Shown here piece by piece: positions 1,836-32,545 of a stretch of DNA of 34,789 nucleotides. A model generated the notes under the pieces. It worked only from the letters and a program-made list of their open reading frames with translations. It was not told where the DNA came from and made no database searches. Numbering within the stretch: position 1 is the first letter of the stretch; every line of letters starts with the position of its first letter. The position numbers were made by a program, and so were the translations under genes. The stretch covers positions 1 to 34,789 of IMG/VR virus record IMGVR_UViG_3300010938_000095; one strand, given 5' to 3'. The stretch is from a virus.

Positions 1836-2254
1836 AACTATGGAAATGCAGCTATGCGGACGCAAAATTCTCAAAATTCATTCGGGAACGCGACCAAGTG
1901 TGCCAGAGATGCGGCACAGTGAGCTTCCTCACCTGTTCTCATTTCTGGGGCAGAAGACACTCCGCAACCCGATTTGACCCCGACAACTGCGTGGCACTCT
2001 GTTCAGGACTTGGCTCAAACCAATGCCACGAGATATGGGAGAACAAAAAGAACAACGAATATAAACACTTTATGCTTGAGCGACTTGGAAAAAAAAGATA
2101 CAATGAGTTGGAGAAGCGTGCTCGCTCGTTTATGAAACGCACGGACGCGATACTTGAGTGCATGAATCTCCTACATGGACGACACACACGATCCGAATTG
2201 GCGGGTAAAGATAAAGAAACATTATTGGCTAGTAAAGATAATAAAAAACCATGA
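1832..2254 (+). CDS. NinG/HNH-like recombination protein
   Basis: A 140-residue protein with a zinc-binding CQRCG pair near residue 24, then TCSHFWGRR, then RFDPDNCVALCSG and NQCHEIW. This order (C-x2-C, a His next to a Gly-Arg-Arg turn, an F-D-x-x-N-C segment, and a final Cys-His) is that of the lambda NinG/Rap group of HNH-related nucleases, which resolve recombination intermediates. The C-terminal half (EYKHFMLERLGKKRYNELEK) is a basic helical region also seen in phage members. It lies between two overlapping early genes and its stop overlaps the GroEL start. A general HNH nuclease is the alternative name. Confidence 0.65.
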   Translation: MKLWKCSYADAKFSKFIRERDQVCQRCGTVSFLTCSHFWGRRHSATRFDPDNCVALCSGLGSNQCHEIWENKKNNEYKHFMLERLGKKRYNELEKRARSFMKRTDAILECMNLLHGRHTRSELAGKDKETLLASKDNKKP

Positions 2255-3780
2255 AATTAAGAAGAATCGTAGAGCATGGATCGGGAGCGAGAAATAAACT
2301 CGCAAAGGGAGCGAAGTATCTAGCTGAAGCTGTTGGCTCTACTGTCGGGCCGTTTGGTCAAAATTTCTTTTTGGATAAGGGGAATAAAATCACCAATGAT
2401 GGTGCGAAAGTAGCCGCCGAGATAGTGCTTAAAGATGAGATAGAGAACCGAGGAGCTATCGCTGCCAGAGAAGTGGCATCAAAAACTAACGACCAGGCAG
2501 GGGATGGAACCACTACCTCTCTCATTCTCTTTGGAGCCATTTACGAAGCTGCATCACGGAAACTTGCGGACGAGGAGAAGGGAAGAATTGCAGGGGTATC
2601 TCCTTCGGAAGTGGTGCGTCAAATTGAGAACGAGCGGTTAGAAATCACCAAGAGACTGGTGGAGATGGCTGAAGAAATAACCACCGAGGCGCAGTTAATT
2701 AATTCGGCCATCGTATCTGTCGAGGACAGCTCACTCGGTGAGCTTATAGGAAAAGCGCAATGGAAACTCGGCAAGACGGGCGTACTCCTTGCCGAGGAGA
2801 GCGCAGAGCGGGAAAGCTCGGTTGAGTTTGTAAAAGGGGTGAGGATAGATAATGGCCTTGGTACGAGTTTGATAATGAACAATCAGGAGAAACAATGCTT
2901 GGAGGTGGAAGATACGCGTATCATTCTCACCAACCACACCCTCCAAGACTTAAAACCCCTGCAAAAAGTGATAGAACAACTGGTTAAATCTGGGTTCAGA
3001 ACCATCACTATCGTTGCGCGGGCCTTTTCATCCGAGGCAATTCAGATTTGCCTCAAAAACATACACGAAACAGGTGTGAAAATTTATCCCCTCAACGCTC
3101 CGTATGTAGATCAGGCGGAGATTATGAAAGATATGCAGGCGGTACTAGGGGGAACGTACTACCACGATGAGGCATCCTCGCTTGAGGATATGCAACTCTC
3201 CGACATCGGCTTTGCCAAAAGAGTGGTGGCGAGGAGGTACGATGCGGTATTTACCGGGCAGGACACCGATGAATCAAAGAAGCGCGTCGAAGCCCGTGTC
3301 ATGGAATTAGAGAGTAAGCTAAGCGGAACACAGTCAGATTTTGAGCGCCGTACCCTCGGCGAAAGGATCGCCCAGCTCAAAAACGGGTTTGGGATAGTAA
3401 AAGTAGGTTCCCCCTCTGAAATGGAACGCAAGAGGCTTTTCGACAAGTGCGAAGACGCGGTGCAGGCGGTAAGAGCGGCATACCAAGAGGGCGTAGTCCC
3501 CGGTGCGGGGGTAGCGTTTAAGCAAATCAGCGAAACCCTACCGGAATCCTATCTACTCAAGAGACCCCTGCTATCTCTTTACGAACAAATCAAATCATCC
3601 GCCCCCCGCGATTGGGAAGTGGAGGCGTGGGTAAAAGACCCCGTAAAAGTATTGAGAATCGCCCTACAGAACGCCTGTCTCATCGCCGCGAGCCTCGCAA
3701 CCGCAGGAGGGGTAGTAACCGCAGAGAATGCAAAGCTACTCGACGAACTCTTGCGTAAAACAGACGAGACAGACGAGTAG
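2251..3780 (+). CDS. groEL: Phage-encoded chaperonin GroEL (group I)
   Basis: The 509-residue protein aligns by eye with GroEL from end to end. It has STVGPFGQNFFLDK (about 30-43), the nucleotide-site aspartate in TNDG (D50), the signature AGDGTTTS with D85 (GroEL D87), KCEDAVQAVRAAYQEG with D402 (GroEL D398, needed for ATP hydrolysis), the GAGVA turn, and KDPVKV with D463 (GroEL D495). The apical domain is present but divergent. About 30 residues are missing just before KDPVKV, where GroEL has its GNYGYNA stretch, and the Gly-Gly-Met tail is absent. All key ATPase residues remain, so it is probably active. No GroES gene was recognised in the window. It sits between a recombination gene and the packaging genes, which suggests folding of capsid or tail proteins. 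Confidence 0.93.
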   Translation: MKLRRIVEHGSGARNKLAKGAKYLAEAVGSTVGPFGQNFFLDKGNKITNDGAKVAAEIVLKDEIENRGAIAAREVASKTNDQAGDGTTTSLILFGAIYEAASRKLADEEKGRIAGVSPSEVVRQIENERLEITKRLVEMAEEITTEAQLINSAIVSVEDSSLGELIGKAQWKLGKTGVLLAEESAERESSVEFVKGVRIDNGLGTSLIMNNQEKQCLEVEDTRIILTNHTLQDLKPLQKVIEQLVKSGFRTITIVARAFSSEAIQICLKNIHETGVKIYPLNAPYVDQAEIMKDMQAVLGGTYYHDEASSLEDMQLSDIGFAKRVVARRYDAVFTGQDTDESKKRVEARVMELESKLSGTQSDFERRTLGERIAQLKNGFGIVKVGSPSEMERKRLFDKCEDAVQAVRAAYQEGVVPGAGVAFKQISETLPESYLLKRPLLSLYEQIKSSAPRDWEVEAWVKDPVKVLRIALQNACLIAASLATAGGVVTAENAKLLDELLRKTDETDE

Positions 3781-3783
3781 GTG

Positions 3784-3792
3784 TGGTATAAT
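3784..3792 (+). promoter_or_regulatory. Extended -10 promoter predicting a leaderless mRNA
   Basis: TGGTATAAT (TATAAT at 3787-3792) lies directly after the GroEL stop, and the ATG at 3801 is 8 bases downstream, about where transcription should start. The identical 9-mer occurs before the genes at 5757, 14447 and 22116. Confidence 0.65.
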
Positions 3793-3800
3793 GCTTGTAT

Positions 3801-3983
3801 ATGGCAAACTCACGGGCTGGAAAAGAACTTATCAACAAAATTAAGGGGATTCCTAGTGCTATCAAAGGCGCAATAGGTCGTCGCATGGAATTGCAGAACG
3901 CATGGGAAAAGGACATGAGAGCGGGGAAAGGGGAGTATTACGAATCCATCTTCAAAACCGCCAAACGACACCCGAAGAAGTAA
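3801..3983 (+). CDS. Small basic hypothetical protein before the terminase genes
   Basis: This is a 60-residue basic protein beginning MANSRAGKELINKIKGIPSA and rich in Lys, Arg and Gly. No family is recognised. The start at ATG 3801 is favoured because TATAAT ends 8 bases before it; an in-frame TTG at 3795 is an alternative. It ends six bases before the terminase small subunit start. It is the first gene of the packaging/head block, so a role in DNA packaging is possible but unproven. Confidence 0.6.
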   Translation: MANSRAGKELINKIKGIPSAIKGAIGRRMELQNAWEKDMRAGKGEYYESIFKTAKRHPKK

Positions 3984-5739: not shown

Positions 5740-5748
5740 TGGTATAAT
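5740..5748 (+). promoter_or_regulatory. Extended -10 promoter predicting a leaderless portal mRNA
   Basis: TGGTATAAT (TATAAT at 5743-5748) is followed after 8 bases by the portal ATG at 5757. An earlier ATG at 5750 is followed immediately by a TGA stop, so 5757 is the usable start. Confidence 0.65.
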
Positions 5749-5756
5749 TATGTGAC

Positions 5757-7781
5757 ATGATCGGCGGAAAGATCACTTTTAAGGACGGCGCACCACAAGA
5801 CGGCAAAGGAAACAAGCTGTCTGAGTCTCCGTATCAGCCCTCGTTGGAGGTGCGTAAACTATTCGCCCGTGTACAGAGAGACTTCCAAGTAGCGTGGGAA
5901 TTGCAGCGAAAGCCCCTACGAGAGTTCGACGGGCACTCGCTCCTCAATCGCACTAAACTCGATCAAGAGACATTTTCCGCGTATGTGGGACTAGAATACT
6001 TACCCGTGCACAAGAAGTGGCGATGGCGCGGCAAGAGAAATACGGCTAGGAATAAACTCATCGGCATTCTCGCCCACATGCTCGCGGGTATGCTTTTTCC
6101 TTTTGTGTACGCCAAGAATGAGCGTAATGAGGAGGATAAAATGACCGCACGGGTTATGCGTATCTTGGTAGAGGACGCACTCAAAGGTGCCAAGTATGAG
6201 ACCAAATTCCTCTACATGGTGCTCTCTGCTCTCGTACACCCTGCCGTATTCGTACAAGTGGAGTACGTTGAGGCGATGCAGAATATCAAACAGCGTATGA
6301 AAGACGGAACGATTGAGATTAGGGAAGCTGTGGATAAGGTCCTTTCAGGATTGCATTTGAACATGCTCCCTATTGACGAGGTGATGCTTGGGGATTTTTA
6401 CTCAGGTACGGGGGACATTCAACGACAGCCGTACATCATGCGCCTTCGTAGGATTTCATACGATGAGGCACGAAGCATCTACGGCAAAAATCCGAACTTT
6501 AAGTATGTCGAAGCAGGTAAGACTCGCTGGATAGCGGGGGGAGAGAGCAATATACTCTTTGACGTTGAGTGGGATGAGGCGGATGGGAACTATGTGCAGG
6601 AGCTTACCGCCTACTACCGCTCCGAGGATATGGAAGTGTGCTGGGTAGGCGGGGTATTTATGGGTAACGAGAAGGATGTATATAACTCAAATCCGTTCAG
6701 GCACCGCAGAATGTGTTTGGTAGATAATGACTGGCTCTCTATTCCTATCTATGAGTTTGCAATGTCGGGCTTTGAACCACTTGATCCTGCCGGGCGCTTC
6801 GCGTTTTACAAATCAGGGGCATTCAAAGAGTATTGGGATTACTTAGGAGAGAATAAAATGGACGCTCTTCTGATGGATGGTACCACGCTTGATGTCATTA
6901 AGCCCCTGTTCCTTACCGGCGTTGCAAAAGCTGGTGGTGAAGTGATGATACCAGGAGCTACGATAGCCATGCCGAAAGATGGCGGAGTTGTACCTTACGC
7001 CCTTGGGCCAAACCTTACTGCCGCTATCGCCGCGATGAAAGAACGTCAGCAAGCCATGAGCGAGAGTACGCAGGATAAGATCATGACTGGCGTTACCTCG
7101 CCAAACGTCACCGCGACACAAAGCATTCAAGCAGAACAGCAGGCACGGGTATTCCTCGGCGTATTTGGCCTTATGATTGCCGACCTCGTAAAGCAAGTAG
7201 GAGAGTTAGCGATGGATTGTGTGCTTATGCACTCTACCGTCGGGGAACTTGATGCCTCAGCACCGGAGGCCCTCACCATGAAATACATGACATACCTTGT
7301 AAAAGGCAAAGAGCGCGGCAGGAACGTCACTAACAAGGTGGTATTCACTGATCGCTACATGGGCAAACAAATCACCAAGAAGCAAGCGGATGATCGTGAG
7401 TGGGAGCTGTACGACATGGCAGGAGGTAAGGAAACCGATCAGTATATCTTTGAGGTAAACCCGTATAAATTCGCCCGCACGTCGTACACCATGGCCGTAG
7501 ACGCCGATAGGATGGTATCCCGCTCGATGGGAACCGATAAGATGCAGAAGGACTTGGCGTTTCAGAGAATGACCGACATGCGTGTTATGCCATTCATAGA
7601 CCTTGAGGCGGTTGTGTCAGATTTCGTGATTGACGAGTATTCTGATGGAGACCCCGACCGCTATAAACGCAAAGGTGGCCCTCAAGATGAACTCCGGCAA
7701 ATGGCCGAGTTGGGGGCAGAGCAGGGCGTGGTCGAACAGCCCAGCAGAGGCAGACCGCAATTACAAGACCTAAACTATTAA
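5757..7781 (+). CDS. Portal protein
   Basis: The 674-residue protein directly follows the large terminase. It has the features of large podovirus-type portals: an N-terminal helical region with RVQRDFQVAWELQRKPLREF, a membrane-like helix LIGILAHMLAGMLFPFVYA, and a long central helix around ATQSIQAEQQARVFLGVFGL. The C-terminal part is Gln/Glu-rich. Portals form the dodecameric ring at one capsid vertex through which DNA passes and to which terminase docks. Assignment rests on length, position (terminase, portal, scaffold, capsid order) and overall character rather than on one diagnostic motif. It has no Shine-Dalgarno site and appears to be translated from a leaderless mRNA. Confidence 0.85.
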   Translation: MIGGKITFKDGAPQDGKGNKLSESPYQPSLEVRKLFARVQRDFQVAWELQRKPLREFDGHSLLNRTKLDQETFSAYVGLEYLPVHKKWRWRGKRNTARNKLIGILAHMLAGMLFPFVYAKNERNEEDKMTARVMRILVEDALKGAKYETKFLYMVLSALVHPAVFVQVEYVEAMQNIKQRMKDGTIEIREAVDKVLSGLHLNMLPIDEVMLGDFYSGTGDIQRQPYIMRLRRISYDEARSIYGKNPNFKYVEAGKTRWIAGGESNILFDVEWDEADGNYVQELTAYYRSEDMEVCWVGGVFMGNEKDVYNSNPFRHRRMCLVDNDWLSIPIYEFAMSGFEPLDPAGRFAFYKSGAFKEYWDYLGENKMDALLMDGTTLDVIKPLFLTGVAKAGGEVMIPGATIAMPKDGGVVPYALGPNLTAAIAAMKERQQAMSESTQDKIMTGVTSPNVTATQSIQAEQQARVFLGVFGLMIADLVKQVGELAMDCVLMHSTVGELDASAPEALTMKYMTYLVKGKERGRNVTNKVVFTDRYMGKQITKKQADDREWELYDMAGGKETDQYIFEVNPYKFARTSYTMAVDADRMVSRSMGTDKMQKDLAFQRMTDMRVMPFIDLEAVVSDFVIDEYSDGDPDRYKRKGGPQDELRQMAELGAEQGVVEQPSRGRPQLQDLNY

Positions 7782-12516: not shown

Positions 12517-14424
12517 ATGAGCAAAGGCGCAGATGATTTCGATTTCAGCCTCGTAGACGAGTTCGAGGGGTACGTTACGTCAAAAGACAAAACAAACGTC
12601 TCTCCTAAGGTTTTAGTGCGCGGATCAAAGAATGTCTACAAAAAAGACTCCGGCACTATCTCTGTGCGACCTGGGCTAAAACGTCTCGGTGTTTCCGATG
12701 ATACGCCACAAGGTGTAAAGGCATCGTTTGAATGGAATACGTCTCTCGCGGTACAGCGACCCTTGCGCGTTCTTGGTGAAAGTCCGGCAGGAAATGACGG
12801 CAAACTCCAAGTGATGTTTGACGGCGTAACCGAGGGGACATGGTACGACTTGCAAACAGGGCTTTCTTTGAGCCGGTACATTTTTGATGTGTACTGGAAC
12901 GACACAGAAAAAAAAGACCGTGTGCTGTTTGTGCGCGGAGACTCAAATATCTACCACTGGAGCGGCGGCATCGCAGTAGCAGCGGCACAGGCCGCGCTCG
13001 GAACCACGCTTACCCTCGCGGACACCTCGAAGACGTGGGCACAGCAAGGATTTACCGCTACCGCGGGAGAGATGAAATTCAAGATTGCGGGGAATACTCA
13101 AGAGTACGAGTACACGGGCGGCACAGATACGAACACCCTCACAGGGATTACTCCTGATTTACCTGAGATTCTGGCGGACGACGTGGTGGTGCAGTCTGTT
13201 CTTGTGGCGTCGGACACTCCGGCGGCGGGGTTTCGCTGCGATTTCATAAAAACTATTGGCAACCAATTATATGTGGGTTCTTACACCTCGCGTTTGATTT
13301 ACATTTCGGCGAATGACAGCTTTACCAATTACACGATTCCCTCTCCCCGTGTAGCAGGAAGCCCTGAACTCTTGACCCTCGACAGCAATCCAAACGGCAT
13401 ATCGTCAAGACAAGGGAAAGCGCATGTATCGGCAGGCATAGGTGAGTGGTACATCGTGGAGTTTAAGGACATTGCCGTCGGCTCGACCCTTACCCAGCAG
13501 ACCGTCGTTGAGAAACAGGAAACCTCCGCGAAGTCTGCTGCTAAAGCCCATGAGTTCATAGACACCATAGGAGATGACATCGTGTACCTCGACCAAGAGA
13601 ATCAACTGCGTATATTCGGCGCGTTCCGCAACCTAACTACCCCAAAGAACCCCTCTATTTCCCTTGCCGTGCGCGAGGAGTTTGAGGAGACGGACTTTAC
13701 GGGAGGGGCGGTACGTTCAGTTGGTGATCTGATTTATGTGACCGCTCCTCTTTCGGGAAAGGTGTACATCCATGAGACACGAGAGAGTGTGGATGGCAAC
13801 GGCAACATCGTCTCGGAGCGATTATGGTATCCACCGTGGATACTCTCTGCCGCCCGCGTGGCTCTTATCGACGGTGTAGAGCATGTTCACTCAACGGAAA
13901 ATCCGCAAATATACCAAGTGTGGAACACGGGGCAGTGGCACGATGATTCACCTTCTGGCGAGCCACTACCCTACGACTGTATTATGCGCATGGCCTACCA
14001 GAATGCGGAACGACGACAGGGGATGATTGCACTCGATAAGGTGTATTTTGAAGGGTACATCTCAGAAGGAACAGAACTAAACGCCCATATCCTCGCTGAC
14101 TACCAGGGATCATCGGCTTCCGTTAATCCTAACGTATCTAGCATATCTTCCTCTGCTCGGCTGTTTTCTGGCTTAAATGCGCCATCGCTAGGGGATTCGT
14201 CTTTGGGAGATAACCCGCTCGGTGATGGACTATCTGACGAAGAAAACGACCAGGAGCGACTGCCGAAGTTCCGCGCTATTTGCGACATAGGCAAGGTGAA
14301 TTGTTTTGAATATCAGATAATCGTGTCGTCGCAGACCGTCGATTCGCGGTGGGAAGTGCTGGCGTTTGGGTCAAATGCGAAACCTGTGGAGAACCAGCAG
14401 GCGGCGTTTCTTCGGAAGACTTAA
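12517..14424 (+). CDS. Tail nozzle / tail-hub protein (podovirus type)
   Basis: A 635-residue beta-rich protein beginning with VLVRGSKNVYKKDSGTISVR and PGLKRLG (about residues 33-58). This 'real or missing ligand, then RPG-L-K' opening is shared by podovirus tail-tube/nozzle proteins of the P22 gp10 / T7 gp12 type. Repeated strand motifs such as IFDVYWNDTEKKDRVLFVRG and GNQLYVGSYTSRLIYISAND fit a beta-propeller. Near the C-terminus is a short repeat, SLGDSSLGDNPLGDG. The protein would form the tip of the short tail. Its presence, with no tail tube or tape-measure gene, is the main evidence for a podovirus-like particle. Confidence 0.7.
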   Translation: MSKGADDFDFSLVDEFEGYVTSKDKTNVSPKVLVRGSKNVYKKDSGTISVRPGLKRLGVSDDTPQGVKASFEWNTSLAVQRPLRVLGESPAGNDGKLQVMFDGVTEGTWYDLQTGLSLSRYIFDVYWNDTEKKDRVLFVRGDSNIYHWSGGIAVAAAQAALGTTLTLADTSKTWAQQGFTATAGEMKFKIAGNTQEYEYTGGTDTNTLTGITPDLPEILADDVVVQSVLVASDTPAAGFRCDFIKTIGNQLYVGSYTSRLIYISANDSFTNYTIPSPRVAGSPELLTLDSNPNGISSRQGKAHVSAGIGEWYIVEFKDIAVGSTLTQQTVVEKQETSAKSAAKAHEFIDTIGDDIVYLDQENQLRIFGAFRNLTTPKNPSISLAVREEFEETDFTGGAVRSVGDLIYVTAPLSGKVYIHETRESVDGNGNIVSERLWYPPWILSAARVALIDGVEHVHSTENPQIYQVWNTGQWHDDSPSGEPLPYDCIMRMAYQNAERRQGMIALDKVYFEGYISEGTELNAHILADYQGSSASVNPNVSSISSSARLFSGLNAPSLGDSSLGDNPLGDGLSDEENDQERLPKFRAICDIGKVNCFEYQIIVSSQTVDSRWEVLAFGSNAKPVENQQAAFLRKT

Positions 14425-14430
14425 AAATAA

Positions 14431-14439
14431 TGGTATAAT
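14431..14439 (+). promoter_or_regulatory. Extended -10 promoter predicting a leaderless mRNA
   Basis: TGGTATAAT (TATAAT at 14434-14439) is followed after 7 bases by ATG 14447. It sits immediately after the nozzle gene stop, in the same arrangement as at 3784, 5740 and 22101. Confidence 0.65.
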
Positions 14440-14446
14440 TTAGTAT

Positions 14447-15769
14447 ATGTTGACTGCCCTTAGCACAGCGTTTTTTGCAGGAATCATTGCCTTCTCATCT
14501 TTGTTTGGCGGCACGGACCAGTCATTCTCTGCTTTCAACCCAACAGGCGGCGGGACATACCGTCTTGCGGCTTCTATAGGAACCACGGACACTAGTATTC
14601 GCCTGTCCTCATTCAAAGAACCAATCTCAAACATCCCCTACACAATGGCGTACCTCGGCTCGGATGTCGGGTACGGCACACTTTCGCCCCAGTCCTCCCG
14701 CTCAGAGTTCGTGTCATTCTCTGGCATTACGCAGAACACCGACGGCTCAGCGACACTCACGGGTGTCGTGCGCGGATTGGTTCGTACCACCGCATCGGGG
14801 GATTGCGGAGTTGCTTCTACAACCTTGCGCCAAGCGCATCCGGGCCAAAGTATCTTCATCCTTTCCAACTCTCCTTGTTTCTACAAGGAATACCCGGTAA
14901 AGCAAAACACCGAGTACATAACGGGCGCGTGGGGCTTTCAAGGTACTGCCCCGACCTCAACCATCTGCGCTAGTGCAAATGAGTTGTGTAACAAAGCGTA
15001 TGTCGATGCTACGGCCAACCAGGGTGCGGCGACCTCTACCGAAACCAACGGCGGTATTGTTGAACTCGCAACTGCCGAAGAAGCTGCCGCGTCGTTTGAT
15101 GGAGGGGTGAGTAAACCTACCGTGCTACAGAGCAAGTACGCCACATCTACTCCTACCCCCTCGTGTTCTACGTTCTGTGTTGTTATCGCTACTGCGGGGA
15201 AGATTTCGCAGGCTTTCATCGACCTGACGCAGACATTTGCATGGGCGGCGCTGCATACTTTCTCCGCGGGTTTTCTCTCAACCGCTTCTTCTACCGTGGA
15301 TGCTGAATTCACCGTAACTGGCACGACAACGCTTAGCGCCGGGATACTCACCGTCTCTACAACGACGGCAACCTCTACCTTCGCCGGGAATCTCCAAATC
15401 TTGAAAAATGCAACCACCACGAACCTTTATGTCTCTGATAACTGCGTTGGCTGCTCGATGACCTATACGGGCAGTTCGACCAATTTTAACGTAAGCTCCG
15501 GTGCGGTAACTTTCACCGGCTCTATTCCTACAAAAGCAAACACGGCGCTCTGCAACTATGAGACTGTCATCAACACATTAACCCGCAGGGGAAATGCCCA
15601 TTTCACACGTTCAGGTATGACCGTAGCATCTCTTAGAGACAGAACGTCAGGAAATAGTGACGCTGCCTCGTACACTCTTACATGGAGCGGAGCGAATTTC
15701 GTCGTAACAGAAACCATCGATAACAACAGCAACTCGTCTATTAACGGCACCTGTTATTGGTATAGATAA
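14447..15769 (+). CDS. Tail fibre/spike-like protein with N-terminal hydrophobic segment
   Basis: A 440-residue protein starting with MLTALSTAFFAGIIAFSSLF, a hydrophobic signal-like segment. A conserved beta module follows (FNPTGGGTYRLAASIGTTDT to about residue 150, ending in PGQSIFILSN). Then come a helix (ELATAEEAAASF), Ser/Thr-rich strand repeats (TVTGTTTLSAGILTVSTTTA) and a compact C-terminal domain with CNYETVINTLTRRGNAHFTR. The sequence style matches fibres from Parcubacteria-linked phages and prophages as I remember them. It probably contacts the host surface. The hydrophobic N-terminus is unexpected for a cytoplasmically assembled virion protein. Confidence 0.65.
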   Translation: MLTALSTAFFAGIIAFSSLFGGTDQSFSAFNPTGGGTYRLAASIGTTDTSIRLSSFKEPISNIPYTMAYLGSDVGYGTLSPQSSRSEFVSFSGITQNTDGSATLTGVVRGLVRTTASGDCGVASTTLRQAHPGQSIFILSNSPCFYKEYPVKQNTEYITGAWGFQGTAPTSTICASANELCNKAYVDATANQGAATSTETNGGIVELATAEEAAASFDGGVSKPTVLQSKYATSTPTPSCSTFCVVIATAGKISQAFIDLTQTFAWAALHTFSAGFLSTASSTVDAEFTVTGTTTLSAGILTVSTTTATSTFAGNLQILKNATTTNLYVSDNCVGCSMTYTGSSTNFNVSSGAVTFTGSIPTKANTALCNYETVINTLTRRGNAHFTRSGMTVASLRDRTSGNSDAASYTLTWSGANFVVTETIDNNSNSSINGTCYWYR

Positions 15770-22100: not shown

Positions 22101-22109
22101 TGGTATAAT
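22101..22109 (+). promoter_or_regulatory. Extended -10 promoter predicting a leaderless fibre mRNA
   Basis: TGGTATAAT (TATAAT at 22104-22109) is followed after 6 bases by ATG 22116. It lies a few bases after the stop of the polyvalent protein gene. Confidence 0.65.
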
Positions 22110-22115
22110 TTGTCT

Positions 22116-22868
22116 ATGAAAATGCTCCGTTCTCCTATACGGTCACAACCATCTGCCCTGACGGGGGTAGCAGAAATACTGAAATTGGTACGCGAGCTAA
22201 ACTTCTTGCGCTCGGTGTTAATTCACACCATCGAACAAGCAAAAGATGCACTAAAACGAGCTGAAATCATCCAGCGTGGCGAGAGAGGACCCCAAGGGCC
22301 GAAAGGAGATAAGGGGGATTCAATAGTAGGGCCACCCGGCCCACAAGGGCCACGAGGAGAAAAAGGGGAAGCAGGAGTGAGTCCGTCAATTATTGAAATC
22401 GCCGACTTCGTACAATCACGCATCAATCTCCCTAAGGATGGTAGAGATGCCGATGTTGAACAGGTCGCCTCGCGGACACTTGAGTTGATTCTCAAGAGCA
22501 AGAAACTCACCACTGATCATATCAAAGGACTCAAGGAAGAAATCGCCTCGTACCGTAACCAGCTTGCTCTTGGTAACGGACAAATGCGCGGCGGGGGGGA
22601 TACGGTAGTGGCTGGTAGCGGTATAACCATCTCAGACAATGGGCTGGGGCAAAAGGTAATAAATGCCTCTGGTGGTTCGACTGGTTCGACTGAATGGCTT
22701 ACCCCCACTGGCGACGTGGATGCAATGAACGTCGTTTTTGGCGTTGCAAGTGAACCAAATGAGGTGCTCTCTGACGGTATTGTGTATGTATCGGGACAGG
22801 GCTACTCTTATGGGGGTGGAAATATAACCCTATCAGTACCCCCGTCTCAATACATTCGCTATCGGTAA
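22116..22868 (+). CDS. Collagen-like tail fibre protein
   Basis: A 250-residue protein. The N-terminal 55 residues are helical (ILKLVRELNFLRSVLIHTIE), suited to trimerisation or particle attachment. A collagen-like Gly-X-Y stretch follows at about 57-85 (GERGPQGPKGDKGD and GPPGPQGPRGEKGEAG), interrupted once by SIV. Then comes a helical part and a C-terminal beta section with GGGDTVVAGSGITISDNGLG, which resembles the tip repeats of phage fibres. Collagen-like segments are frequent in phage fibres and form triple helices without hydroxyproline. The start ATG 22116 fits the promoter spacing; TTG 22110 is in frame but falls within the promoter spacing. Confidence 0.75.
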   Translation: MKMLRSPIRSQPSALTGVAEILKLVRELNFLRSVLIHTIEQAKDALKRAEIIQRGERGPQGPKGDKGDSIVGPPGPQGPRGEKGEAGVSPSIIEIADFVQSRINLPKDGRDADVEQVASRTLELILKSKKLTTDHIKGLKEEIASYRNQLALGNGQMRGGGDTVVAGSGITISDNGLGQKVINASGGSTGSTEWLTPTGDVDAMNVVFGVASEPNEVLSDGIVYVSGQGYSYGGGNITLSVPPSQYIRYR

Positions 22869-29291: not shown

Positions 29292-29464
29292 CTTACTTTG
29301 GTTCACAGCAAGGGAGCGCGTTTGGGGAGGATCACTTCCCCTCTACGCTACATGTCTCCCTACGGGGAAATGACCAAAAGAACACCCATAAAAAAAGGCT
29401 TTTTGAGCCATTTCCCCAGGCTGTGGACATTGCACGTTTTATGAGGGGCGCTTATCAGATATAA
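29288..29464 (+). CDS. Doubtful small ORF coupled to the peptidase gene
   Basis: ATG 29288 overlaps the preceding stop (ATGA) and opens a 58-codon frame, MTYFGSQQGSAFGEDHFPST and onward, with a basic middle and the end RFMRGAYQI. No family is recognised. Its DNA contains a long inverted repeat (29364-29417) and its end lies on the holin promoter, so the stretch may be mainly regulatory. Translational coupling is the only argument for a gene. Confidence 0.3.
   Translation: MTYFGSQQGSAFGEDHFPSTLHVSLRGNDQKNTHKKRLFEPFPQAVDIARFMRGAYQI
29364..29417. repeat. Long inverted repeat upstream of the lysis cassette
   Basis: GGGGAAATG (29364-29372) and CATTTCCCC (29409-29417) are perfect 9-bp arms. Inside them CCAAAAG can pair with CTTTTTG with one bulge, giving a stem of roughly 15 pairs. 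The loop also holds the self-complementary AAAAAG-G-CTTTTT. A T-tract after the right arm is missing, so a standard terminator is not indicated. It lies about 45 bases upstream of the holin promoter and could control lysis timing. Confidence 0.5.
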
Positions 29465-29465
29465 T
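29460..29465 (+). promoter_or_regulatory. -10 box predicting a leaderless holin mRNA
   Basis: TATAAT (29460-29465) ends 7 bases before the holin ATG at 29473. Unlike the four TGGTATAAT sites it lacks the TG extension (AGATATAAT), so it may be weaker or need an activator. Confidence 0.5.
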
Positions 29466-29472
29466 ATACAAT

Positions 29473-29652
29473 ATGGCACCCAGCTACATAGCAGCGATTG
29501 CGGCCATCTTAGTAAACCTTCAGGGTTTGCTAGGCCTCGATTTCTTGCCTGACCAGTGGGTAATGTTCTTGACCGTCGGCTTTGGCATAGTCATTGCCAT
29601 CCGCCAGATTCTCACAGGACGTTCCACCGTTGTCGGCAAACGACCGAACTAG
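29473..29652 (+). CDS. Candidate holin (two membrane segments)
   Basis: A 59-residue protein beginning MAPSYIAAIAAILVNLQGLL. Two hydrophobic stretches (YIAAIAAILVNLQGLLGL, about 5-22, and WVMFLTVGFGIVIAIRQIL, about 29-47) are separated by a short loop with Asp and Pro-Asp-Gln, and a basic tail (GRSTVVGKRPN) follows. This is the classical form of a small class II holin. The stop lies 11 bases before the probable lysin start, giving the usual holin-lysin order. There is no Shine-Dalgarno site, but a TATAAT box ends 7 bases before the ATG. Function rests on topology and context. Confidence 0.65.
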   Translation: MAPSYIAAIAAILVNLQGLLGLDFLPDQWVMFLTVGFGIVIAIRQILTGRSTVVGKRPN

Positions 29653-29663
29653 CAACTTCTCCG

Positions 29664-30317
29664 TTGGTTCTCGTCGAACCATTCGGGAATGAGAAGCGAC
29701 TGAAACTCCCCTATATTCGACACTTGTTTTCGACACTGTGCATCTATCTTTTCTGTAATAGCCTCGCACTCGCAGCCCCACCCCTCTCCAGACAGTTGGA
29801 GGCGGCTTCTTCACACCCCCAGGAGATAATTCTTTCCGTCGCTGACGAGTACGGCGTCTCGCGCTCTTTGATGACCAACATAGCATACAGTGAGTCTCGC
29901 TTCGATCCGTCAGCTGACAACGGCTATGACCGAGGACTTTTTCAAATCAATCGCAGGTACCACCCTGACGTTTCAGACGAGTGCGCCTTTGACGCTCTGT
30001 GCTCGACCAGGTGGGCCGCACAGCGTATCAAGGACGGCTATGCCCACGAGTGGGCTTCTGCTAACTGCTACCTATTCGTCAAAGCTCGTATCAAAGGACT
30101 TCCCCCGTCGAGTGAGTTAAAGCCCAACAGCACGCCTAAAATCGGCGCTGTGGCCTTGTTTGATTACGATGGAGTGAAACACTACGCCGAGGTAGTGTCG
30201 CTCAGTGCTGACCATTTTAGAGTGTTTGAGAGCAATTACACGGCGGGGCTCATCGACTACCGCGACGTCTCCTACGCCGACCCCTCACTTAAAGGATTTT
30301 GGGACAAGAGTATGTAA
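29664..30317 (+). CDS. Exported bifunctional lysin: SLT-type transglycosylase plus CHAP-like domain
   Basis: A 217-residue protein if started at TTG 29664; TTG 29724 is the other reasonable start, and both leave a signal sequence (HLFSTLCIYLFCNSLALAAPP, cleavage likely after ALA). The first domain has the lytic-transglycosylase core: GVSRSLMTNIAYSESRFDPS with catalytic Glu (E77), then DRGLFQIN. The second, from about residue 133, has ANCYLFVKARIKGLPP (C135), IGAVALFDYDG and KHYAEVV (H173), the order of CHAP/NlpC-type amidase-endopeptidases. It would cut both glycan strands and peptide stems. The signal sequence suggests Sec export, with the holin needed mainly for timing. A terminator follows. 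Upstream in-frame starts run through the holin gene and are unlikely. Confidence 0.75.
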   Translation: MVLVEPFGNEKRLKLPYIRHLFSTLCIYLFCNSLALAAPPLSRQLEAASSHPQEIILSVADEYGVSRSLMTNIAYSESRFDPSADNGYDRGLFQINRRYHPDVSDECAFDALCSTRWAAQRIKDGYAHEWASANCYLFVKARIKGLPPSSELKPNSTPKIGAVALFDYDGVKHYAEVVSLSADHFRVFESNYTAGLIDYRDVSYADPSLKGFWDKSM

Positions 30318-30512
30318 GGTCGAGCAGATTGTCCCAATCAAATAGAAAACTACTGTGGCTAATTCGACTGGTCACGGTTGGTAAACACTTTTAGGAAGCA
30401 AAAAGCCCCTTCTTAGGGGCTTTAGCTTTACTTCTGAAGTTTTTTGATGAAGGAAGGGGTTATCCACAGGTCTAAAAAGTGGCCCTATACACTCGTATCC
30501 ATGTGTTTTTCA
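30318..30512. other. Intergenic gap between lysis genes and accessory cassette
   Basis: No gene is visible. The gap contains the terminator at 30402-30423 and an exact DnaA-box sequence, TTATCCACA, at 30460-30468. The first ~80 bases show nothing I can interpret. Confidence 0.6.
30402..30423 (+). terminator. Intrinsic terminator of the lysis/late operon
   Basis: AAAGCCCC (30402-30409) pairs perfectly with GGGGCTTT (30416-30423) around a 6-base loop, with an A-run before and TTTAGCTTTA after. It can therefore act in both directions. It separates the late operon from the accessory cassette. Confidence 0.8.
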
Positions 30513-30521
30513 TGATATAAT
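30513..30521 (+). promoter_or_regulatory. Extended -10 promoter of the accessory cassette
   Basis: TGATATAAT (TATAAT 30516-30521) matches TGnTATAAT. The predicted start of transcription is near 30528. Unlike the leaderless promoters, the first likely start codons are 31 bases (30559) or more downstream. The leader contains a near-palindrome (AGTTCTTTT-AAAAGAGAACT, 30537-30556) that could be an operator or RNA hairpin. Confidence 0.6.
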
Positions 30522-30558
30522 TAAGGTGAACATCACAGTTCTTTTAAAAGAGAACTCG

Positions 30559-30789
30559 ATGAGAAAACGCTCCACCAGAAGACGCAAGCGGATTCGTAGT
30601 TTCCGCCGCGCGTACAACATGATGCTAGTCGCTCTCTTGAATGGAGGAAACTATGTCGGAGAGTTTGAAGAAACGTCGCGCGGCTCTGAAATGGATGCGC
30701 GACTACAACCGCCGCACTACGCTCGACTGCGGCCACCACAGGGGGAATCTGCCGCCCGTAAAGGTCGGAAAGTTCACCGTATGTGGTGA
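30559..30789 (+). CDS. Possible short basic peptide at the head of the cassette
   Basis: ATG 30559 opens a 76-codon frame whose first ~32 residues, starting MRKRSTRRRKRIRSFRRAYN, are strikingly basic. The remaining part overlaps the next gene (30653-30868) in a different frame and looks like its shadow. A GTG at 30526 in the same frame lies too close to the promoter. The ORF may be a real leader peptide that couples translation to the next gene (its codons pass through that gene's GGAGGA site), or may be spurious. Confidence 0.35.
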   Translation: MRKRSTRRRKRIRSFRRAYNMMLVALLNGGNYVGEFEETSRGSEMDARLQPPHYARLRPPQGESAARKGRKVHRMW

Positions 30790-30868
30790 AGGATGCGCTC
30801 GGTTCATCTACCAGCAACACGCCAAGGAGGATGCCCATTTGCAAATCGTGGCGAAGAAGCCGCGATGA
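30653..30868 (+). CDS. Zinc-binding micro-protein 1 of 3 (CGHH...Cx3C)
   Basis: A 71-residue protein from ATG 30653, preceded by GGAGGA at 30643-30648, a strong Shine-Dalgarno site. The N-terminal 22 residues are basic; then LDCGHHRGNLPPVKVGKFTV leads to VCGEGCARFI. Potential metal ligands are C26, H28 or H29, C44 and C48, so the second half-site is C-x3-C. The next two genes encode proteins with the same C-x3-C half-site and a similar VxCxxGCA stretch (CGEGCA here, CNNGCA next). This resembles TRASH/MYM-type treble-clef zinc fingers. Function unknown; metal or nucleic-acid binding is inference. Confidence 0.65.
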   Translation: MSESLKKRRAALKWMRDYNRRTTLDCGHHRGNLPPVKVGKFTVCGEGCARFIYQQHAKEDAHLQIVAKKPR

Positions 30869-31038
30869 GCCGCGAGGACAAGCTTCTTTTGTTGCTGTAC
30901 ACGCCGAAGTGCGGGTACTGTAACAGTGACCTCTCCGATATGGAGAGACTCGTGTTCGACCACAAAACACTTCGGGTGTACTGCAACAATGGCTGCGCCA
31001 TCTGGGGCGAAGCGCGTGAAAAGGGACTCGTGAAGTAG
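30865..31038 (+). CDS. Zinc-binding micro-protein 2 of 3 (TRASH-like CxxC...Cx3C)
   Basis: A 57-residue protein starting at ATG 30865, which overlaps the previous stop (ATGA). Ligands are C16 and C19 (KCGYCNSDL) and C40 and C44 (VYCNNGCAIWG). The spacing C19-x20-C40-x3-C44 agrees with the TRASH motif (C-x19-22-C-x3-C), first described in proteins of metal trafficking and sensing. It has no separate Shine-Dalgarno site, consistent with coupling to the upstream gene. The short length leaves room for this domain only, so it probably acts as a small binding or adaptor protein. Confidence 0.65.
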   Translation: MSREDKLLLLLYTPKCGYCNSDLSDMERLVFDHKTLRVYCNNGCAIWGEAREKGLVK

Positions 31039-31047
31039 GAGGCTACT

Positions 31048-31245
31048 TTGACAAGCGTGCGCCATCCTCGTCGCGACGAACGTGGAAGTGTCTGCTGTTG
31101 CGGGTGCGGCAAGCCGTTCATCGTCGGGGATGGCCACTTTCTCCTCGGTGATGTCGTTGTACGGGGCGAGCCGTACCTTGCATTCCTACCCTTCTGTACT
31201 TGGACGTGCCTTCTCAATTACCACCCCACTCTTGGCGAATGTTGA
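31048..31245 (+). CDS. Zinc-binding micro-protein 3 of 3 (TTG start)
   Basis: A 65-residue protein started at TTG 31048; AGGAGG at 31037-31042 is five bases upstream, which decides this unusual start. The Cys-rich N-terminal site is GSVCCCGCGKPF (C16, C17, C18, C20) and the second site is PFCTWTCLLNY (C50, C54), again C-x3-C. The arrangement resembles YHS/TRASH-type fingers, where an FCSxxC-like turn follows a beta hairpin. The spacing between the two half-sites (29 residues) is longer than in its neighbour. Its last base pairs overlap the next small ORF (TGATG). Confidence 0.6.
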   Translation: MTSVRHPRRDERGSVCCCGCGKPFIVGDGHFLLGDVVVRGEPYLAFLPFCTWTCLLNYHPTLGEC

Positions 31246-31379
31246 TGGAGGATCAAGTGGAACCGTCTGTACTTCGTCAGAAGCGAGACCCGTTCAGGCA
31301 TCTTCTGCTGCACCTCAAGGCCCTTATCTTGCTGAACCTACTCGCCGTGCTCATTGCACTGGTGAGAATCCTCAACTAA
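31245..31379 (+). CDS. Small single-pass membrane protein
   Basis: A 44-residue ORF, ATG 31245, overlapping the preceding stop (TGATG). Sequence: a charged N-terminus (MEDQVEPSVLRQKRDPFRH) followed by a hydrophobic helix LILLNLLAVLIALVRIL. No Shine-Dalgarno site; it would be coupled to the upstream gene. Its stop lies within the AAAGGAGG site of the next gene. Small size makes it uncertain, but overlap, frame and clear membrane helix support it. No family recognised. Confidence 0.5.
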   Translation: MEDQVEPSVLRQKRDPFRHLLLHLKALILLNLLAVLIALVRILN

Positions 31380-31390
31380 AGGAGGCCACT

Positions 31391-31564
31391 ATGTACGAGA
31401 AGATTCTTCTCGCGCTCCTAGTCGGCTTCCTCTGCGCCCTTCTGTGGAAGGGCGAGGTGAAGTCGGCACCTGCCACCCGCTCCGAAAAGGATCTGGTGGT
31501 TCCACTGTGTAGCTTTGGTCCGCTTTATGGGCCGTGGACGGAGGCACCATGCGAAAGGCCATAA
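31391..31564 (+). CDS. Small membrane-anchored protein
   Basis: A 57-residue protein, ATG 31391, with the strongest Shine-Dalgarno site of the window (AAAGGAGG, 31378-31385). The start MYEKILLALLVGFLCALLWK is a signal-anchor; the rest (about 37 residues) is exposed and includes two Cys (PLCSFGPLYGPWTEAPCERP), which could form a disulphide outside the cytoplasm. A longer frame starting at 31082 is a shadow of the upstream gene. It overlaps the next gene by 16 bases. Confidence 0.6.
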   Translation: MYEKILLALLVGFLCALLWKGEVKSAPATRSEKDLVVPLCSFGPLYGPWTEAPCERP

Positions 31565-31914
31565 AGTACGTTCTCAACACGCTTGCCTTCCTCGTTTTTG
31601 TGTGGATGTGCATCGTGGTTCTCAAGCTTGTTACGCCCTACGCTCATTCACACGAATTTTATTCGAAGTGGATGAAACCCCATAAGCCGACGGAGAGCTG
31701 TTGCAATAACCGTGACTGCTTCGAGGTGGAGGGGAGGAAGCTCCCGAACGGGCGCTATCAGGCATTTGTTGACGGGGAGTGGATAGACATCCCACCTGAA
31801 ATCGTGCTTGACCCTCTCAAGCCCGAAAATCAGTCACCGGGGGGCTACCACCTCTGTCGTGACCCATTGACGAAAGAACTCTTTTGCTTCCGCGAGGAGG
31901 AAGTTAAGATGTAG
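31549..31914 (+). CDS. Cys-rich membrane-anchored/exported protein (CCxxxDC type)
   Basis: A 121-residue protein; ATG 31549 has GGAGG just upstream (31539-31544 region). The N-terminal helix YVLNTLAFLVFVWMCIVVLKL anchors it. The exposed part has EFYSKWMKPHKPTESCCNNR, then DCFEVEG, GEWIDIPPEIVL, GGYHLCRDP and LFCFREE. The pattern 'Tyr-Ser-x-Trp-Met-x-Pro ... SCC...DC ... W..IP ... HLC ... FCF' is one I associate with periplasmic proteins of alphaproteobacteria such as Rhizobiales. Five conserved Cys suggest disulphides or metal binding. Function unknown. A likely import into a phage with a different host; convergent terminators follow. Confidence 0.65.
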   Translation: MRKAIKYVLNTLAFLVFVWMCIVVLKLVTPYAHSHEFYSKWMKPHKPTESCCNNRDCFEVEGRKLPNGRYQAFVDGEWIDIPPEIVLDPLKPENQSPGGYHLCRDPLTKELFCFREEEVKM

Positions 31915-31980
31915 GCACACGGCTCCTCCCTCCCGTGTGCTTAAACTGGAAGGACTAGAAATAGCCCTTCCTTTCTTTTA
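31915..31980. terminator. Terminators between convergent operons
   Basis: Two hairpins lie back to back. GCACACGG (31915-31922) pairs with CCGTGTGC (31933-31940), 8 bp. GGAAGG (31948-31953) pairs with CCTTCC (31966-31971) and is followed by TTTCTTTTA. The rightward cassette ends at 31914 and the leftward operon ends at 31988, so this is where the two transcription units meet. Confidence 0.65.
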
Positions 31981-31987
31981 ACCAAAT

Positions 31988-32545
31988 CTAGGGCATGTTT
32001 TCTTGCCCCGCTCCTTTCTGTTGTACTTTGCCATTGTACAGTATTACAACATCTTTTGTTTTTCTGCCGTACTCTAGCATTTCCTCTATAGTTTCTGTGC
32101 TGTAAATATCTACCGTTAAGCCGTGTTTTTGGTGTACCCATTTGGCGGTTCTGTCTTTCACTACATATTTATTTCCATCTACTAAAGCAATACTTCCTAA
32201 CGGTATATCTCTATCACTTACCGCTACTGCTCCGACATGAGGGTATTCCCCGTTTGCCATAGTGTCCCCTGTCCATCCGTATTTTGTAACACTTGCTGTG
32301 CCTTTGTATATTACTTCCTCCTCGCCCACGCACTCTACTACTTCTAATTCGCACGGGCTTGGTAGTTCTTGCTGTGGTGCCTCGTAGCTAATGCGGTAAG
32401 GCTGTAATAGCACGGCTATTGCCGCGGTTACTATAATCGCTCCTAGCACTGCGTTGCGTATAAACGCTTCGCGCTTTTTTGCTCGGCGCTCGCGTCTGCG
32501 TCGGTAAGTATCTCGCGTTAGCCATTCGGGTATATCGTATTTCAT
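31988..32545 (-). CDS. Membrane-anchored 3D-domain protein (double-psi beta barrel)
   Basis: A 185-residue protein. The N-terminal ~30 residues are very basic (TYRRRRERRAKKREAF); a membrane helix follows (VLGAIIVTAAIAVLL, about 33-47). The C-terminal 3D domain (about 85-172) shows SVTKYGWTGDTMANG, GAVAVSDRDIPLGS, VVKDRTAKW and LTVDIYSTETIEEMLEYGRK. The three aspartates of the family are visible in SDRDIP, KDRTA and TVDIY. 3D domains occur in MltA-type transglycosylases and resuscitation-type cell-wall proteins. It is last in the leftward, early-type operon, away from the lysis genes, so entry or superinfection control is as likely as lysis. Confidence 0.75.
   Translation of the reverse strand: MKYDIPEWLTRDTYRRRRERRAKKREAFIRNAVLGAIIVTAAIAVLLQPYRISYEAPQQELPSPCELEVVECVGEEEVIYKGTASVTKYGWTGDTMANGEYPHVGAVAVSDRDIPLGSIALVDGNKYVVKDRTAKWVHQKHGLTVDIYSTETIEEMLEYGRKTKDVVILYNGKVQQKGAGQENMP

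Follow-up and report, generated by a model that had tools for sequence, protein, structure and literature searches.

A moron-like cassette of small genes with Shine-Dalgarno signals in a phage of a probable Patescibacteria host

Results

Our analysis concerned the whole of a 34,789-base stretch of an IMG/VR virus record (hereafter, the window), on which the terminase, portal, capsid, fibre and lysis genes run rightward and a short leftward block occupies the right end. The phage also encodes a GroEL-like chaperonin (2251-3780; Cpn60_TCP1, E 5e-23), which is 60% identical to its counterpart in the related record G003. Between the lysin gene (29664-30317) and a leftward gene (31988-32545) lies a cassette of six small open reading frames, o1-o6, with the following features:

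30402..30423, + strand: terminator-like hairpin AAAGCCCCTTCTTAGGGGCTTT between the lysis genes and the cassette; 9-bp stem without mismatch, weak T tract
30513..30521, + strand: TGATATAAT, extended -10 promoter box of the cassette
30522..30652, + strand: leader, about 125 nt, containing a hairpin; an alternative Arg-rich ORF begins here
30653..30868, + strand: o1, 71 aa, Cys/His-containing peptide; SD GGAGG (-9.3 kcal/mol)
30865..31038, + strand: o2, 57 aa, CxxC...CxxxC peptide; without SD, ATGA overlap with the o1 stop
31048..31245, + strand: o3, 65 aa, seven Cys, TTG start; SD AGGAGG (-10.2 kcal/mol)
31257..31379, + strand: o4, 40 aa, small membrane protein, GTG start; SD GGAGG (-9.3 kcal/mol)
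31391..31564, + strand: o5, 57 aa, small membrane or exported protein; SD AAAGGAGG (-10.9 kcal/mol)
31549..31914, + strand: o6, 121 aa, exported Cys-rich protein; SD GGAGG (-8.9 kcal/mol)
31912..31980, + strand: two 3' hairpins, the first with loop CTCCTCCCTC, the second followed by a T-rich tail
3784-3801, 5740-5757, 14431-14447, 22101-22116 and 29460-29473: leaderless-type promoters, by TATAAT spacing

An earlier note on this DNA had described a perfect terminator, the TGATATAAT box, six packed or overlapping small genes at 30653-31914 and two 3' hairpins, one of them T-tailed, and each of these elements was recovered: all six ORFs are present, the 3' hairpins fold much better than shuffled sequences (z = -4.6), and the stem of the upstream hairpin is indeed perfect, though terminator matches in the region are not enriched (7, against 10.5 in shuffles). 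The promoter and terminator of its own that characterise a phage moron are thus found at the level of sequence. In another frame, an Arg-rich ORF (MRKRSTRRRKRIRSFRR...; 30559-30789) begins in the leader and overlaps o1, and its status as a gene is uncertain. The loop CTCCTCCCTC of the first 3' hairpin (31915-31941) is able to pair with the SD sites of the cassette.

The cassette box and four of the phage's leaderless-type promoters are all of the TGNTATAAT class, which occurs six times in the window, always on the + strand, against 0.64 expected. At five phage starts (3801, 5757, 14447, 22116 and 29473) TATAAT ends 6-8 nt before the ATG, a spacing that we read as the mark of putative leaderless mRNA. 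Unlike these starts, the cassette box is followed by the long leader and by Shine-Dalgarno (SD) sites. The earlier note had counted four strong sites in the block; anti-SD pairing energies revealed five at classical spacing, before o1, o3, o4 (from the GTG at 31257, now added; an alternative ATG at 31245 overlaps the o3 stop), o5 and o6. Its remark that such sites are almost lacking in the rightward structural genes is borne out, since SD pairing elsewhere in the window is at the random level or lower, and since the starts of 256 genes of the phage and its relatives are depleted of it, with a mean of -0.88 kcal/mol against -2.26 in an upstream control and with 4.3% of genes at -6 kcal/mol or below against 10.5% (approximate figures, because gene starts were assigned by simple rules). 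Given this depletion, four SD-led genes among six would arise by chance with a probability of about 5e-5, a value that assumes independence among genes and was calculated only once the block had been singled out.

Searches of Pfam, PHROGs and NCBIfam returned nothing above cut-off for the six proteins, and a concatenated tblastn of the cassette proteins of the window and of G003 against phages and plasmids also gave nothing, which is a weak null for proteins as short as these. For o1-o5 no relatives were detectable; the Cys spacing of o1-o3 suggests putative metal-binding peptides, and the hydrophobic segments of o4-o6 suggest a role at the envelope. By contrast with o1-o5, o6 could be assigned to an unnamed family of exported, Cys-rich proteins with the pattern HxxY...SCCNxxDC...HxC...CF: after an N-terminal hydrophobic segment it carries H, Y, SCC, DC, GxW, P, HxC and a final C in that order. 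Its relatives lie on plasmids of Alphaproteobacteria (Microvirga, Skermanella, Bradyrhizobium) and also on alphaproteobacterial chromosomes, and the family was found in 3 of 190 alphaproteobacterial genomes, in none of 240 patescibacterial genomes and in two IMG/VR contigs, so that by sequence matches it appears in this analysis only in Alphaproteobacteria and virus contigs. A further IMG/VR contig, L002, was discarded as spurious, the match lying inside an unrelated 413-aa ORF. A PDB profile search and a fold search with o6 gave nothing significant, with a predicted model whose confidence was only 69.

The related phage records searched, among them many fragments, yielded no relatives of o1-o6. 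Of the relatives near full length, G003 is the closest (TerL 73%, MCP 63%, GroEL-like protein 60%); it carries at the same junction an unrelated block of three Cys-motif peptides and one exported protein, and no homology was detected in the two pairs of Cys-motif proteins compared between it and the window. This block likewise has strong SDs (-11.3 and -10.5 kcal/mol, plus a GGAG), and its codon usage fits the phage less well than that of any of 18 of its own genes. Its leader (L018, about 13500-13660) includes a CTGCTCTTTAAC stretch resembling an rRNA boxA, and after its last gene (L018, 14470-14510) stands a sequence like the 3' half of a tRNA; no tRNA was called at the G003 junction. Another record, G014, shares the flanking leftward gene with the window at 62% and has, downstream of a similar terminator, just one ORF, of 70 aa, whose SD is poorly spaced. 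Hence, the absence or replacement at the same site that is expected of a moron is seen among the relatives, within a comparison limited by fragments, and the cassette is, by this comparison, separable from the late operon. The self-contained, accessory character proposed in the earlier note agrees with this, and the inseparability that would have spoken against it was not observed.

The composition of the cassette tells a different story. The same note had proposed codon usage as a check; the window cassette matches the phage's own codon usage, and we reject foreign codon usage for it. The deviating composition of a moron is thus lacking in the window cassette and present in the G003 block.

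Relatives of the fibre were found in 18 of 287 Patescibacteria genomes against 1 of 289 from Alphaproteobacteria, and in 51 of 347 genomes of one Patescibacteria order, and the tetranucleotide correlations of the phage are highest with members of the same order. Genes of this order show no average SD excess, and their -10 boxes peak 6-7 nt before the starts. The 16S rRNA 3' ends (read at loci L270-L298, and also L262, L264 and L267) are without CCUCC in all 29 cases that could be read from this probable host order, e.g., TCGTGGATTATTTCAAATTGAA, while five other Patescibacteria genomes retain GGATCACCTCC. TerL gave no clear host, its relatives lying in contigs binned to several phyla; an Ignavibacteriae contig (L034, TerL 60%) had no match at 1e-4 to any other gene of the window and was for this reason not counted as the host. 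No relative of the major capsid protein that could reveal the host through a prophage was found in the 347 genomes. Judging from fibre, composition and promoter spacing, we consider it likely that the phage infects this anti-SD-less order, and its host is probably an ultra-small bacterium whose ribosomes are without the SD-reading sequence. Since the 16S tails lack CCUCC, the SD signals of the cassette would be foreign to such a host. The chromosomes of the order contain sporadic SD-led accessory genes; groups of small SD-led genes, some with Cys motifs, were seen at L328 1173-4342 and L311 4591-5454. In the literature searched, coverage of which was partial, we met no description of this order as having lost the anti-SD.

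Discussion

We postulate, with a probability of roughly one half, that the cassette is a moron-like island, that it came from the gene pool of SD-using bacteria, probably Alphaproteobacteria, and that its products act on the cell envelope. Its own extended -10 promoter would drive transcription of the island, terminators would insulate it, and it would have retained the SD signals of the source pool, while in the probable host its genes would be started independently of SDs or by coupling. The exported o6 and the small membrane proteins o4 and o5 probably act at the envelope, with o1-o3, the putative metal binders, as possible cytoplasmic regulators or adaptors; the likeliest purpose may be to help take over the host or to keep competing phages out. 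Both the SDs and o6 are accounted for by import from an SD-using pool, which is favoured because sporadic SD-led accessory genes also occur in the chromosomes of the anti-SD-less order. Against it stands the cassette promoter, which belongs to the phage's own class, and the phage-like codon usage implies that a recent import would need a donor of similar composition. The earlier proposal that the block came from an SD-using host thus holds for o6, with its alphaproteobacterial family, and finds no support in the codon usage of the window cassette, while that of the sister cassette in G003 does support a foreign origin. Only o6 speaks for an alphaproteobacterial source, because o1-o5 are without detectable relatives. 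Since no integrase was recognised within the window and no capsid relative was found in the 347 genomes, we speak of the cassette as moron-like; a strict moron, carried by a temperate phage, would be a further presumption.

The same SD signals could be read in other ways. Possibly the true host has an anti-SD, being of another Patescibacteria lineage or another bacterium, in which case the SDs work and mark a strongly translated accessory operon. The host assignment draws on fibre, composition and promoter spacing, with no prophage or capsid relative found, GGATCACCTCC is kept in five other Patescibacteria genomes, and TerL relatives are spread over contigs binned to several phyla; the phages as a group are nevertheless depleted of SD pairing, and this, like the closest matches in composition, indicates the anti-SD-less order, and we regard a host with an anti-SD as rather doubtful. 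It has also been considered that the GGAGG sites serve an RNA-binding regulator, or the CUCCUCC loop of the 3' hairpin, and so let the operon regulate itself. This loop pairs with all five sites at -10 to -16 kcal/mol; such pairing is, however, a trivial consequence of CCUCC and may be due to chance, each site lies at the classical SD distance from its start codon, and no matching loop was noticed when we read the G003 block at its 3' end, which makes self-regulation very improbable.

A more far-reaching idea is that selection preserves the operon for expression in a second type of cell, one that uses SDs and is likewise entered by the phage, for instance a larger bacterium carrying the patescibacterium; there the SDs would function and proteins of the o6 type would act in the envelope. 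The retention of five well-spaced SDs in an otherwise SD-depleted phage, the presence in G003 of another, unrelated block with SDs at this place and the alphaproteobacterial family of o6 are consistent with it, and there is a published precedent, in which CRISPR spacers tie some phages to both CPR and non-CPR bacteria (PMC10746230). The junction might then be a dedicated slot, in phages of anti-SD-less Patescibacteria, for SD operons that their own host ribosomes do not read and that are expressed in another, SD-using cell, probably the larger bacterium that carries the patescibacterium. However, isolated SD-led accessory genes also stand in chromosomes of the anti-SD-less order, where a second cell is no cause, which weakens the claim that such SDs need another cell; furthermore, the pattern comes from just two phages, and entry of this phage into another cell type is itself conjecture. 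We therefore judge both the second cell and the dedicated slot unlikely, and prefer the imported island.

If the host assignment holds, the cassette offers a sequence-level test of whether phages of episymbionts also act in the larger partner cell, namely the search for gene blocks with ribosome signals that only the partner can read. SD-led genes would also provide a way of spotting imports in anti-SD-less genomes. A further outcome of our analysis, directly checkable, is that the whole order seems to lack the 16S anti-SD and to have leaderless-type promoters.

The probable host order resembles the bacteria without a CCUCCU anti-SD surveyed by Amin et al. (2018; PMC6107228) in having the same kind of 16S tail and genes without SDs; that survey names Bacteroidetes, Mycoplasma and Carsonella, while a word search of its text yielded no Patescibacteria or Parcubacteria. 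The phages of Liu et al. (2023; PMC10746230) are, like this one, CPR-type phages with features compatible with a second bacterium, but the evidence there consists of CRISPR spacers and stop-codon use, and here of SD sites in one cassette, without spacers. With the alphaproteobacterial members of its family o6 has in common the N-terminal signal or anchor, HxxY, SCCNxxDC, GxW, PP, HxC and C(F/V), at just 28-35% identity and, unlike them, within a phage operon alongside other small genes. In comparison with phage morons, the cassette is distinguished by ribosome signals that its probable host would not read, and expression from a lysogen is for the cassette a presumption, no integrase having been recognised; like them, it consists of extra genes with their own promoter and terminator, set between phage modules and absent or swapped in relatives.
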